Positions 2,266-6,463 of a DNA stretch of 63,543 nucleotides are shown piece by piece. The stretch is from Sulfurovum sp. 16-42-52 (GTDB taxonomy: Bacteria > Campylobacterota > Campylobacteria > Campylobacterales > Sulfurovaceae). Below the pieces are notes generated by a model, which did not search any database, had not been told where the DNA came from, and saw only the letters and a list, made by a program, of their open reading frames with translations. The translations under genes were made by a program, and so were the position numbers. Every line of letters begins with the position of its first letter. Position 1 is the stretch's first letter. The stretch covers positions 1 to 63,543 of the forward strand of contig NCHB01000008.1 in NCBI GenBank assembly GCA_002281755.1, given 5' to 3'.

Positions 2266-2271
2266 TATAAT
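2266..2271 (+). promoter_or_regulatory. -10 box giving a predicted leaderless subtilase mRNA
   Basis: GGCTATAAT ends six bases before ATG 2278 (TATAAT-ACAACC-ATG). Initiation 6-7 bases after the -10 falls on or beside the start codon, and no Shine-Dalgarno sequence precedes this ATG. The same arrangement occurs at 31867-31872 (minus strand) and 56723-56728. Confidence 0.55.
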
Positions 2272-2277
2272 ACAACC

Positions 2278-4308
2278 ATGAAATCTAATCTTTTTTTACT
2301 TATTTTTGTTATCATCATAGGGTTGCTAAATGGATGCGGTGGCGGTTCTAGCTCAAACTCTACTGAACCAATTATCGGGCAGCTGCCAACGGACAATATA
2401 GATGTACCTAGCATAGAGCCTCCTGTTGAACCTGATATACAAATTCCCATTTTTATTACAGAAAATACTTTATTAGTAAGAGAAAATACCGTCATAGCAA
2501 CTTCTGTTCAAGCCGATGATGATTCATCTGTTTCTTATAGTATTAGTGGCACTGACAGCCTATTGTTTATTATAGATAGCCGTTTGGGTACTTTGAAGTT
2601 CAAAACTGCACCCAACTTTGAATCTCCTCTAGATAACAACCAAGACAATATTTATGAGATAACCGTAACCGCTACAGATACTGCAAACAATAAAGCGGTA
2701 CTTACTATGTATATCTCTGTAACAGACATAGATGAAAGCAGCGCAGATGACAGCGATAATGACTATATATCTGACAATATAGAGATTTTGATACAGAGCG
2801 ACCTTGGCGAGAGTGATATAAATAATAACGGTATAGAAGATGGTCTTGACACACAAGGAGTCTATGGCGATACTTTTTTTGATCATTTGTGGTACATCAG
2901 AAGTCTGGGCACTTTGACAAACGAGAGTGGCGTAAGGAGTATTATCCCAAACGATCTCAATCTTTTGGGGCTTTACCATACCTATATGGGGTACAATTAC
3001 GGCGAAAACATCATCGTACAGATAGTCGATACGGGTGTAGAAGCAGACCATGAAGATCTTGTAGCCAATATGGATCTTTCGCGCTCTTATGACAATGCAA
3101 CCGTAGGCGACCCCTCAGGAAGCAATGCACACGGTACTAAAGTAGCCGGTATTATGGCTGCCAGGGCTTTCAACGGCAAAGGGGTCAGAGGTATCATCCC
3201 GTTTGCAAAGATAGCCGGAAGCAACTGGCTTGAGGCACAACGAACTCCCGCACTGGAAAAAGCATGGCTCACAGGTGACGGGGCGAACGATATTGCGGTG
3301 TCAAACAACAGCTGGGGGAGTTACTTCGATACCGACACACTCTATGAAAGCATTATGGAGCTTGGTACGCGTACGCTTAGAGACGGCAAAGGCAGAGTGT
3401 ATGTATTTGCAGGTGGTAACGACAGGATAGATGGGGGTAATGCCAATTTGCAGTATGCCCTCAGTAACCGTTACGCTATCGCCGTAGCCGGACTCAAACA
3501 TGACAACACCTATGCGGACTATTCTACTCCTGGATCAAACATCTTAGTCTCAGGCTACAGCGGAAATTATTACCAAGATAGTCCCACGTTAGGTTCAACA
3601 ACTATCATGGGTACCTCCAGCAACACAGGTAACATCGACACCCAAACAACATGGGATGAAGATGTACAAGAAAACTATACGTTTACAACCAACGGCACTT
3701 CTGCTGCTTCGCCTACAGTGGCAGCCTCCATCGCACTGGTGTTGGAGGCATGCCCCGATTTAACCTACAGGGATATCAAATATCTCGTTGCAAAAAACGC
3801 CTTGCAGATAGACTCTTCCAATCCTACATGGGTAACCAATGCTGTTGGATTTAAGCACAGCATAGACTACGGTTTTGGGCTTATCAACCCGCAAGGGATG
3901 ATTGATGAATGCACTACCACTTACACCATACTTCCTTCTGAACGCAATGCAAGTATTACAAAAGTTTTTAATGAGCAAATACCCGATGACCGAAGCACTC
4001 TCTCTTTTGATCTCAATGTCACGGAAGATATGACAGTAGAGTGGGTGGAGGTCACAATTGACAACACGAATCGCTTTGCGTCAGACTACAGAGTGGCGCT
4101 CATCTCCCCAGAAGGCACCAAAACAACCATCATGACAGAAAACACCTCCCCAGATATCAACAACTGGATGAATGGCGGCTTTAGACTTGGGGCTGCTGCG
4201 TTGATGGGTGAGAAAAGTCAAGGGCTGTGGAGAGTTGAGATGACAGACCTGGTAGCTGATGACGCCGGTACACTCAGAAGCATTCAACTCAAAGTGTACG
4301 GACATTAA
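2278..4308 (+). CDS. Lipoprotein S8 (kexin-like) subtilase with cadherin and P domains
   Basis: 676 aa from ATG 2278, chosen because the protein then begins with a lipoprotein signal (lipobox LLNGC, followed by GGGSSS). Order: lipid anchor and Ser/Pro linker; cadherin-like repeat (about residues 60-155); an acidic, calcium-type DSDNDYISD segment; S8 catalytic domain with Asp251 (VDTG), His285 (HGTKVAG), oxyanion Asn381 (AGGND) and Ser475 (GTSAAS); C-terminal P/Homo B domain from about residue 560. The protease is probably at the cell surface, calcium-stabilised, and cleaves proteins. No inhibitor_I9-like propeptide is visible between the signal and the cadherin repeat, yet a propeptide-like protein is encoded directly downstream. 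The catalytic triad is complete, so activity is expected; the substrate is unknown. Confidence 0.88.
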   Translation: MKSNLFLLIFVIIIGLLNGCGGGSSSNSTEPIIGQLPTDNIDVPSIEPPVEPDIQIPIFITENTLLVRENTVIATSVQADDDSSVSYSISGTDSLLFIIDSRLGTLKFKTAPNFESPLDNNQDNIYEITVTATDTANNKAVLTMYISVTDIDESSADDSDNDYISDNIEILIQSDLGESDINNNGIEDGLDTQGVYGDTFFDHLWYIRSLGTLTNESGVRSIIPNDLNLLGLYHTYMGYNYGENIIVQIVDTGVEADHEDLVANMDLSRSYDNATVGDPSGSNAHGTKVAGIMAARAFNGKGVRGIIPFAKIAGSNWLEAQRTPALEKAWLTGDGANDIAVSNNSWGSYFDTDTLYESIMELGTRTLRDGKGRVYVFAGGNDRIDGGNANLQYALSNRYAIAVAGLKHDNTYADYSTPGSNILVSGYSGNYYQDSPTLGSTTIMGTSSNTGNIDTQTTWDEDVQENYTFTTNGTSAASPTVAASIALVLEACPDLTYRDIKYLVAKNALQIDSSNPTWVTNAVGFKHSIDYGFGLINPQGMIDECTTTYTILPSERNASITKVFNEQIPDDRSTLSFDLNVTEDMTVEWVEVTIDNTNRFASDYRVALISPEGTKTTIMTENTSPDINNWMNGGFRLGAAALMGEKSQGLWRVEMTDLVADDAGTLRSIQLKVYGH

Positions 4309-4314
4309 GGAGAG

Positions 4315-4755
4315 ATGATGAACAAAACAACCCTACCTCTTGCAGCATTGCTTTTTCTTTTGGGCAGCAGCTTAGCATTTTCAGATAAAACTGATCTAAA
4401 GATGGCAGAGAAAAACTATACTGAAGCCATCATCTTAGATGAGGGGGTTAAGCGTACCATCCACATACCAAAAGACTCCAATACCACAGCCAAAGCCAGT
4501 ACCTACGAGTCGATACAAACACTGAGTAAAAAAGAAGGTGTGATGGTCAGTTTTAGAAAAAATAATGGGCTTTCCATTGGTGTATTTGAGACAAAGTACG
4601 GGTTAAAGCTTCAAGAGAAATTGGCAATAGGGTATTATATTTTTGAAAATGTATCGGATAAAAGCGATATGGAAATCGTTCAAGATATCATCAAAAATGA
4701 AAGTGCTGTCAAAACAGTCAAACCAAACTGGGAGAAAAAAAACATACCTCGATAG
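4315..4755 (+). CDS. Small secreted protein resembling a free-standing subtilase propeptide
   Basis: 146 aa with an N-terminal signal peptide (LPLAALLFLLGSSLAFS). AAGGAGAG overlaps the end of the protease gene; ATG 4318 has better spacing than ATG 4315. Residues about 60-146 show the pattern of S8 propeptides (inhibitor I9 / fervidolysin-type): a VMVSFRKN strand, then ETKYGLKLQEKL, IGYYIFENV, a helix with MEIVQDIIKNESAV, and the closing strand VKTVKPNWEKK, comparable to the 'V-x-x-V-E-P-N' end of subtilase propeptides. It lies 6 bases after a subtilase that lacks its own propeptide. A trans-acting folding chaperone or inhibitor of that protease is the best hypothesis. The similarity is judged by eye; no search was run. 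Confidence 0.6.
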   Translation: MMNKTTLPLAALLFLLGSSLAFSDKTDLKMAEKNYTEAIILDEGVKRTIHIPKDSNTTAKASTYESIQTLSKKEGVMVSFRKNNGLSIGVFETKYGLKLQEKLAIGYYIFENVSDKSDMEIVQDIIKNESAVKTVKPNWEKKNIPR

Positions 4756-4769
4756 GAGGTATGTTTTTT
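4737..4769. terminator. Symmetric bidirectional terminator
   Basis: A perfect 14-bp stem, 4737-4750 against 4756-4769, has A6 on one side and T6 on the other, with a 5-base loop GATAG. The stop codon of the upstream gene (TAG 4753-4755) lies in the loop. Placed between convergent genes, it should terminate both strands. Confidence 0.85.
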
Positions 4770-4828: not shown

Positions 4829-6463
4829 TTAATATATATACGCGATGCCCATATCTTCGATACTGTCATACTCAACAGGCTCTTCACCTTCGATGGTAAT
4901 CGTACCGTAAGTTATATCTTCAGCATCTTTCAAGAACTCAACCGTCGCTGTATTGGTACCCGTCAAGACTGTTTTTCCTGCATAAGGAGAGTAGTCAACA
5001 TAAGGGTAAAAATAGTTGTATCCGATTTCTTCAGGCAACATAGAACCGCGATTCTCAGGATATGCAGAACTCATCAACCATGGACTTGGTGTACTTAGTA
5101 CTGCGCTGCCTCCCATCAGTGTCGAACCGACTGTGCCGCTTAGGCTTAAGCTTTCTGCATTGCTGTTTGTAGATACATATGTTTGATAGTTGTATGTTTC
5201 GTGACCATCATACGTATATCCTATAGTTAATCCATCAGCATACAGATCTAAACCTCCCTCACTGTCTTGCAATACAAGATAACCGCCCAACTTGGTACTT
5301 CCCTCACTCTCATACTTACCATCATAAGAAACAGTAGTGTACCAATTTTCACTTACATACGAATACACACCTTTAGAGGTTGATGTGTTTTCGACCGTGA
5401 CATTGCAAGCAGAAAATGCTGTAGTGGTATTGACGTCATAAAATTCCTGTAGAGTCTCACTTCCTTCAAAAGTTGCATTTGTAGAGTATTGTCCACTGTA
5501 TTGATTGTTGGATGTGTAGTTACCTTCATTGGTTGGTGTATCATAGCTATTGTTGTTTTCGTTTGTATAGCTGTAATCAAATGTAACCGACAGCTCTTCA
5601 GTTGAGGCAAAATGCCATAGTGTTGCATTGTCTTCTTTGTATTCTGCACTCAGACCCTCTGTAACAACATGCGAAGTACCGCTACCTAAATACTGATCAT
5701 TAGACCCATCATCTCTTTGTACTGGATTATCATTCCATTCATTATAGGCATATGTATAGTCACTATTGTACTCAAGCGAGAGTGACCCGTTAAAGGTTGT
5801 TGTGCTACTGCTTGCTTCATAGTAATTGAGACGATTAATGATGCTGTTGTACATAATCATCTCTTCAAAGAAGTTTAGTGCTTCACTACCTACCATATTG
5901 TCCATCACGCATTCATCAAATGAAAGTGTGACTTTATTCATATTTGATGAAATATCAATCCCATTATTTTCACCATATGTATAACTATCTTCCTGCTGAA
6001 GTGAATAGGTACCACCTAAATCACACGCAATGTTATCACCATACTCAAGTGATCCATCACCAGAGATAAGGGTTTTCTTCACAGTGGCTGTGTTTTGTTG
6101 AAGTGTTTGTATCTTGCCACTAAGCATGGAAGCCAGCTTAGAAACTTTTTTTGGTTCTTTTTCTGAAGCTTTTGCCTCTCCAGGACCCATATTGTAGCCA
6201 CCGTCTGAAAGCAGGTATGCTATATCTTCACTTACCAATGCTGCACTAAGTGCTGCCTTGGTGTTATTTTGATCGAGTGTTGCAGGAGCTTTAACAGCTT
6301 CAGGCACGCAGGTATCAACCGGTGTATCTTGTGGTGGTGTACCTTGTGGTGGTATTTGTGTGATTGGATTTGTTGTAGTTCTATCTGAATTGCCACATCC
6401 TGTCATCCCTATAGTAACAACTGCACAACACGCCAAAGCGGCTATTTTACTTAACTGTGTCAT
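4829..6463 (-). CDS. Secreted lipoprotein of unknown function, Tyr/Asn/Ser/Thr-rich
   Basis: 544 aa from ATG 6463, chosen because GGGA lies just upstream and the protein then starts with a lipoprotein signal ending in GMTGCG; an in-frame ATG at 6496 would add 11 residues before the signal. After a Thr/Pro-rich linker (about residues 25-50), the rest is an extended region full of Tyr, Asn, Ser and Thr with alternating-strand patterns (for example SLSLEYNSDYTYAY), suggesting a large beta-structure outside the cytoplasm. No known domain was recognised. It stands alone between a symmetric terminator and its own promoter, and could be a surface adhesin or envelope protein, but nothing in the sequence proves this. 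Confidence 0.7.
   Translation of the reverse strand: MTQLSKIAALACCAVVTIGMTGCGNSDRTTTNPITQIPPQGTPPQDTPVDTCVPEAVKAPATLDQNNTKAALSAALVSEDIAYLLSDGGYNMGPGEAKASEKEPKKVSKLASMLSGKIQTLQQNTATVKKTLISGDGSLEYGDNIACDLGGTYSLQQEDSYTYGENNGIDISSNMNKVTLSFDECVMDNMVGSEALNFFEEMIMYNSIINRLNYYEASSSTTTFNGSLSLEYNSDYTYAYNEWNDNPVQRDDGSNDQYLGSGTSHVVTEGLSAEYKEDNATLWHFASTEELSVTFDYSYTNENNNSYDTPTNEGNYTSNNQYSGQYSTNATFEGSETLQEFYDVNTTTAFSACNVTVENTSTSKGVYSYVSENWYTTVSYDGKYESEGSTKLGGYLVLQDSEGGLDLYADGLTIGYTYDGHETYNYQTYVSTNSNAESLSLSGTVGSTLMGGSAVLSTPSPWLMSSAYPENRGSMLPEEIGYNYFYPYVDYSPYAGKTVLTGTNTATVEFLKDAEDITYGTITIEGEEPVEYDSIEDMGIAYIY

Follow-up and report, generated by a model that had tools for sequence, protein, structure and literature searches.

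A gene pair in a 63,543-nucleotide stretch of Sulfurovum sp. 16-42-52 (contig NCHB01000008.1, assembly GCA_002281755.1; the whole stretch is referred to as the window) very probably encodes a propeptide-less, lipid-anchored, kexin-like protease and a propeptide that is supplied to it in trans, with binding, folding help, inhibition and release as the predicted roles of the second protein. Subtilase-type proteases normally carry a built-in folding helper, the propeptide. A sequence-only reading of the window had proposed a two-component maturation system, and this proposal was supported by the absence of a Pfam propeptide in the protease, the fold of the small partner protein, its pairing with the protease, a rule governing the length of its C-terminal tail and its homology to ORF2 of Aeromonas sobria, the biochemical function being predicted throughout.

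The protease gene (2278-4308, forward strand) encodes a lipoprotein subtilase of 676 amino acids, as had been read from the sequence, and no propeptide domain was found in it by the Pfam scan. Its best match among PDB sequences was the A. sobria protease ASP (3hjr, E 5e-32), which outranked furin and kexin. The lipobox LNGC (2326-2337, Cys20) has lipobox-like counterparts at the N-termini of relatives and is followed by a cadherin domain (residues 70-148, 2485-2721; PF00028, 29.5 bits with a cut-off of 28.8) and an Asp-rich TSP3-like segment (2740-2850). This segment lies immediately N-terminal to the catalytic domain, in the position otherwise expected for a propeptide; similar segments were observed in the relatives L083, L059, L076 and L057, and L102 gave a weak Pfam TSP3_bac match. 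The Peptidase_S8 domain (residues 242-522, 3001-3843; E 6.6e-34) retains the catalytic triad D251 (3028-3030), H285 (3130-3132) and S475 (3700-3702), the same residues that had been named before. A P_proprotein domain (kexin P-domain; residues 587-672, 4036-4293; E 5.9e-11), which the earlier label "kexin-like" had only implied, was detected by Pfam, and the S8 domain, the P-domain and the D/H/S triad are together the features of MEROPS S8B (kexin). All of these features are on the forward strand. The protease is the sole S8 gene of its 1.99-Mb genome (contig C16), and its nearest named relatives, found by scanning contigs with the protease alignment, belong to Sulfurovum and other Campylobacterales. 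An ortholog-like gene for 331 amino acids (1251-2246 of the window, region 250-2246) precedes the protease gene and has a counterpart in the same place in Sulfurovum sp. S141 (L118, 2844-3839); thus, synteny is conserved.

The small gene (4315-4755, forward strand) begins 6 bases past the protease stop codon and encodes a secreted protein of 146 amino acids, as originally reported. Its start is preceded by TAAGGAGAG, with a strong Shine-Dalgarno sequence (TAAGGAGAGATGATG; GGAGA at 4309-4313, forward strand), and the real start may be the second ATG (4318). Residues 1-22 (4315-4380) form a putative signal peptide with a helix at residues 7-16. At the other end of the unit, a TATAAT -10-like box (2266-2271, forward strand) lies 6 nt 5' of the protease ATG and is a possible leaderless promoter for both genes. 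This GCTATAAT box is conserved in three close relatives (L116, L117 and L118), and the promoter pattern scan reported no -35 match. The single leaderless promoter previously assigned to the pair is plausible rather than proven, since the relatives that share the box have leaders with a Shine-Dalgarno sequence. The single terminator behind the pair was confirmed by folding, which detected an intrinsic hairpin (4737-4769; -19 kcal/mol, z -6.3) that a simple pattern scan had missed; it overlaps the end of the small gene, has an A-tract and a T-tract on its two sides and is followed by a convergent gene.

The structure of the small protein was predicted with AlphaFold2 from a 17-row alignment. The body (residues 68-141, 4516-4737, forward strand) was modelled as strand-helix-strand-strand-helix-strand with pLDDT over 90, and the N-terminal extension was poorly ordered. 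This beta-alpha-beta-beta-alpha-beta arrangement is that of subtilase propeptides, including the I9 and fervidolysin types, which bears out the propeptide-like pattern first recognized by eye. Two details of that description had to be changed: the segment KYGLKLQEKL, taken for a turn, forms the last part of helix 1 and a strand, and the protein does not stop at EKK, its actual end being PNW-EKKNIPR. The first-ranked Foldseek match in the PDB was the ORF2 chain 3wqb_B (probability 1.00, E 7e-3), followed by other high matches to PC1/3 prodomains and fervidolysin, E-values that are weak in absolute terms. Re-alignment with VIA gave Z 7.4 for PC1/3 prodomains, 7.1 for ORF2, 7.0 for the subtilisin propeptide and 6.0 for the stand-alone inhibitor POIA1 (1itp), scores that are not decisive alone because RRM- and ACT-like folds have the same topology and reach Z 5-6. 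The alignment with ORF2 (residues 38-146 of the model) was one of the few that extended into the N-terminal extension.

Furthermore, a profile-profile comparison by hhalign linked the partner family to ORF2 across the whole body (score 40.0, E 3.8e-6), the best of 60 column shuffles reaching 13.4. The small protein alone had no matches in Pfam, NCBIfam or PDB sequences, and the 17-row family profile missed ORF2 when run against PDB sequences. No match above the curated cut-off was obtained with PF18492 (ORF_2_N), for which two relatives gave matches of E about 0.005 at the most favourable, and nothing exceeded the cut-off for the I9/fervidolysin propeptide families of Pfam; some members of the partner family weakly matched Fervidolysin_NPro-like and CspB_prodomain. 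As direct sequence searches gave nothing, the link to ORF2 is visible only by fold and by profile-profile comparison.

The co-occurrence of the two genes was analyzed in the order with a family profile. Among 299 genomes, 59 had a member of the partner family, at 78 places, and at 67 of these the member was beside or inside an S8 gene, a neighbourhood that is far above chance. For 7 of the 11 remaining places, the genome has an unlinked P-domain S8 gene. Two weak matches with no S8 gene nearby (G126 and G283; L075 and L208) are probably spurious and were given no weight as evidence. Three arrangements were distinguished: a P-domain protease with a separate downstream partner gene, as in the window; a protease without P-domain and a separate upstream partner gene, mostly overlapping the protease start; and a protease without P-domain to which the partner is fused as N-terminal propeptide. 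In the classified set, a P-domain was detected in 33 proteases with a downstream partner (7 without), in 2 with an upstream partner (16 without) and in none of the 17 with a fused partner. The arrangement labels required 5 changes on the catalytic-domain tree, for which two rows labelled 'none' were reassigned to upstream; shuffled labels required 31.7. With full support, the tree set apart a P-domain/downstream clade, in which 32 members have a downstream partner, 1 has an upstream partner and 2 have no neighbour.

Several further loci were recorded during this survey. In genome family f23 (L062, L065, L066, L070 and L071), the genomes have a P-domain protease and, unlinked to it, a partner gene ending in RGLK or similar. 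One genome (L082 and L085, G106:C1) holds an upstream-type partner with a P-domain protease twice, about 264 kb apart; the two partners have identical bodies and C-termini and a tail of 4 residues, not 7, apparently after a recent duplication. In a Spirobacillus cienkowskii MAG (L141), an S8 protease lies between two small secreted proteins (3103-3816 and 5733-6338) whose C-terminal parts are alike and propeptide-like, although the profile does not match them. Finally, small secreted proteins that look propeptide-like by eye were observed just upstream of S8 lipoproteins in Ruminobacter/Succinivibrionaceae (L145, 2697-3170; L146, 2608-3096; L151, 1381-1893), possibly an independent case of a separate-gene arrangement.

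The P-domain proteases were also examined from the side of the enzyme. The order contained 57 P-domain places, and 49 were counted on S8 genes, the P-domain matches without an S8 ORF (L245, L249, L250, L253 and L260-L262) being left out. A partner adjoined 34 of the 49 genes (seen only with a wider profile in 7 cases), was unlinked in the same genome for 7 and was not detected nearby for 6, one of them at a contig end; the other 2 loci were outside the neighbourhood check. Neighbourless homologues with a propeptide of their own were looked for as well, and the P-domain proteases of the order scanned with Pfam showed no recognizable propeptide. In L252 and L256, just about 20 residues separate the lipobox from the catalytic domain. 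Such a protease also stands without a neighbour in Sulfurovum FS08-3 and in a cave relative (L121 and L122), and each of the two genomes has one unlinked partner gene.

Additionally, three genomes were found with two tandem protease-partner pairs each. The partners share 56-71% identity within an orthologous type and 37-47% across types, and the proteases 56-63% within and 47-49% across, so that each protease lineage keeps its own partner. Since the stop codon between the two genes of the window is in frame, they form a natural single-chain construct, and the complex was modelled as one chain of 670 residues with the TAA read as Gln; seven relatives are readable as the same in-frame fusion. 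AlphaFold2 gave a pTM of 0.90 and a mean pLDDT of 87.5 for this tethered chain and, judged by these two scores, the model is confident as a whole. The hairpin of the N-terminal extension (residues 35-52, 4417-4470, forward strand) rose from a pLDDT of about 50 in the isolated partner to block values of 86 and 68 in the fusion, which fits an extension that would become ordered on the protease. The tail block stayed at 71, and as the chains are tethered, a position of the tail in the active site is suggested by ORF2 and by the tail rule described below.

The C-terminal tail of the window partner, EKKNIPR (4732-4752, forward strand), ends 7 residues past PNW, and its predicted seat is the active site of the protease. 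The same length was observed throughout the family: 66 of the 69 standalone partners end exactly 7 residues past a P-[ND]-[WF]-type motif (59 of 62 once duplicate entries for a genome are dropped). Of the 18 fused forms, 16 have an Arg at +7, 15 a basic residue at +4 and 12 one at +5, and none was basic at +8 to +13, as in PDF-IKVRKKR-SLDPLFKYAWHL. The +7 Arg looks like a kexin-type maturation site. The standalone ends coincide with this putative cut site, so the free protein resembles a propeptide that has already been cut. In the close relatives of the window partner the ends are KRNRPM, KHNRPM, KQNQPR, NNKPR and NNRPR, near the QQPR/QPK ends of ORF2; the last residue varies outside this clade (R, K, Y, Q, L, M or H), perhaps in step with the S1 pocket of the respective protease. 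A secreted protein of 217 amino acids directly downstream of an S8 protease in a Pseudomonadota MAG (L181, 5625-6278) ends in AQPNW-YRPLVTK and fits the 7-residue rule, although the profile misses it.

The closest known system is ASP/ORF2 of A. sobria (3hjr, complex 3wqb; ORF2, 2mk4, PF18492). Active ASP was obtained only with ORF2, which is encoded directly downstream, inhibits ASP with an IC50 of 84 nM and places its C-terminal Lys near the catalytic serine; asp-orf2 operons have been reported from four other genera besides Aeromonas (PMC5638518). A survey of 2022 treated ASP as the exception among subtilases, without N-terminal propeptide (PMC9549277). Nearly all of the PF18492 members that were collected from Pseudoalteromonas and its order follow a protease ORF directly, and QQPR, QQPK or xxPM is the end of many of them. 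The window pair shares with ASP/ORF2 an S8 protease with a P-domain and without a propeptide, a small secreted protein encoded directly downstream (also in the relatives of the window), and a partner with the propeptide fold, an N-terminal extension and a C-terminal tail that ends in a basic residue after Pro (QPK in ORF2, IPR in the window). It differs in the lipobox, cadherin repeat and Asp-rich TSP3-like segment of the protease, in a partner that falls below the PF18492 cut-off and is related at profile level, in its phylum (Campylobacterota, compared with the genera reported so far) and in relatives with unlinked, upstream and fused partners. Furin and kexin (S8B) have the same catalytic domain and P-domain (VIA Z 47-49 over 440-456 residues) and the same propeptide fold (Z 7.4 for the PC1/3 prodomain, as above), whereas these eukaryotic convertases hold the propeptide in cis and then cut it off. 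The I9-type propeptides of fervidolysin and subtilisin also have this fold, and the fused relatives of the window use the domain in cis; the propeptide-like domain of the window, in contrast, is a separate downstream gene.

By analogy, the window pair would work like ASP/ORF2, as a related lineage. The protease and the small protein would be exported separately, each with its own signal peptide, and the small protein would bind the unfolded protease, probably in the periplasm. Its prodomain body would template the catalytic domain, its N-terminal extension would become ordered upon binding, and the tail EKKNIPR would lie in the substrate cleft and put Arg146 into the S1 pocket, like the product end of a self-cleaved propeptide. 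Binding would help folding and block activity, which would begin once the small protein has dissociated or been degraded. Points against this reading are the 6 P-domain S8 genes with no partner detected nearby, the unlinked partners of 7 genomes, the variable last residue outside the clade of the window, the pLDDT of 71 in the tail block of a tethered model, and a link to ORF2 that shows by profile and fold but not as a Pfam match.

Alternatively, the small protein could be an inhibitor only, guarding the periplasm, with a protease that folds alone or by means of its N-terminal domains. POIA1, a stand-alone I9-type inhibitor, is likewise a single-domain protein of propeptide fold that acts in trans, although it has no N-terminal extension, and we know of no such inhibitor encoded beside a propeptide-less protease. 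The product-like tail would suit an inhibitor, and so would the unlinked partners of 7 genomes, which an inhibitor tolerates well. Nevertheless, this explanation is unlikely: in fused homologues this domain is a genuine N-terminal propeptide, the P-domain proteases that were checked carry no recognizable propeptide, and the homologue ORF2 is needed for active ASP (PMC5638518).

A secreted protein unrelated to the protease and co-transcribed by chance would account for the lack of a significant database family match of the small protein alone. It is very improbable, being contradicted by the family-wide co-occurrence with S8 genes (67 of 78 places) and also opposed by the fold, the profile match to ORF2, the tail rule and the tracking of cognate proteases. 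That one gene was recently broken into this pair (as a split pseudogene or by a sequencing error) is hardly credible even though fused forms occur in the same order, given that the small gene comes with a signal peptide and a Shine-Dalgarno sequence of its own, lies downstream, the reverse of the fused order, and keeps this arrangement through the whole clade.

The principle of supplying a propeptide in trans is already known, because ASP/ORF2 is of the same kind; the papers searched contained nothing on Sulfurovum subtilases and, apart from ASP, nothing on subtilase propeptides encoded by separate genes. New in the present analysis is a second phylum for the Aeromonas-type arrangement and the exact coincidence between the end of the free protein and the predicted cleavage site of the fused propeptide. 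Also new is that a single order has the partner in fused, upstream, downstream and unlinked form. The subtilase propeptide of Campylobacterota is probably, on balance, a detachable module that occurs in these four forms, so that some enzymes would be born with a pre-cut propeptide and activated by release of the partner without self-processing. If true, this would explain the origin of the Aeromonas-type external chaperone. With the window and its relatives, the arrangement of a propeptide-less protease and a partner is common in another phylum, and since fused and separate propeptides coexist in one order, the origin of external chaperones becomes directly testable, as does the rule that fixes where a separate partner must end.
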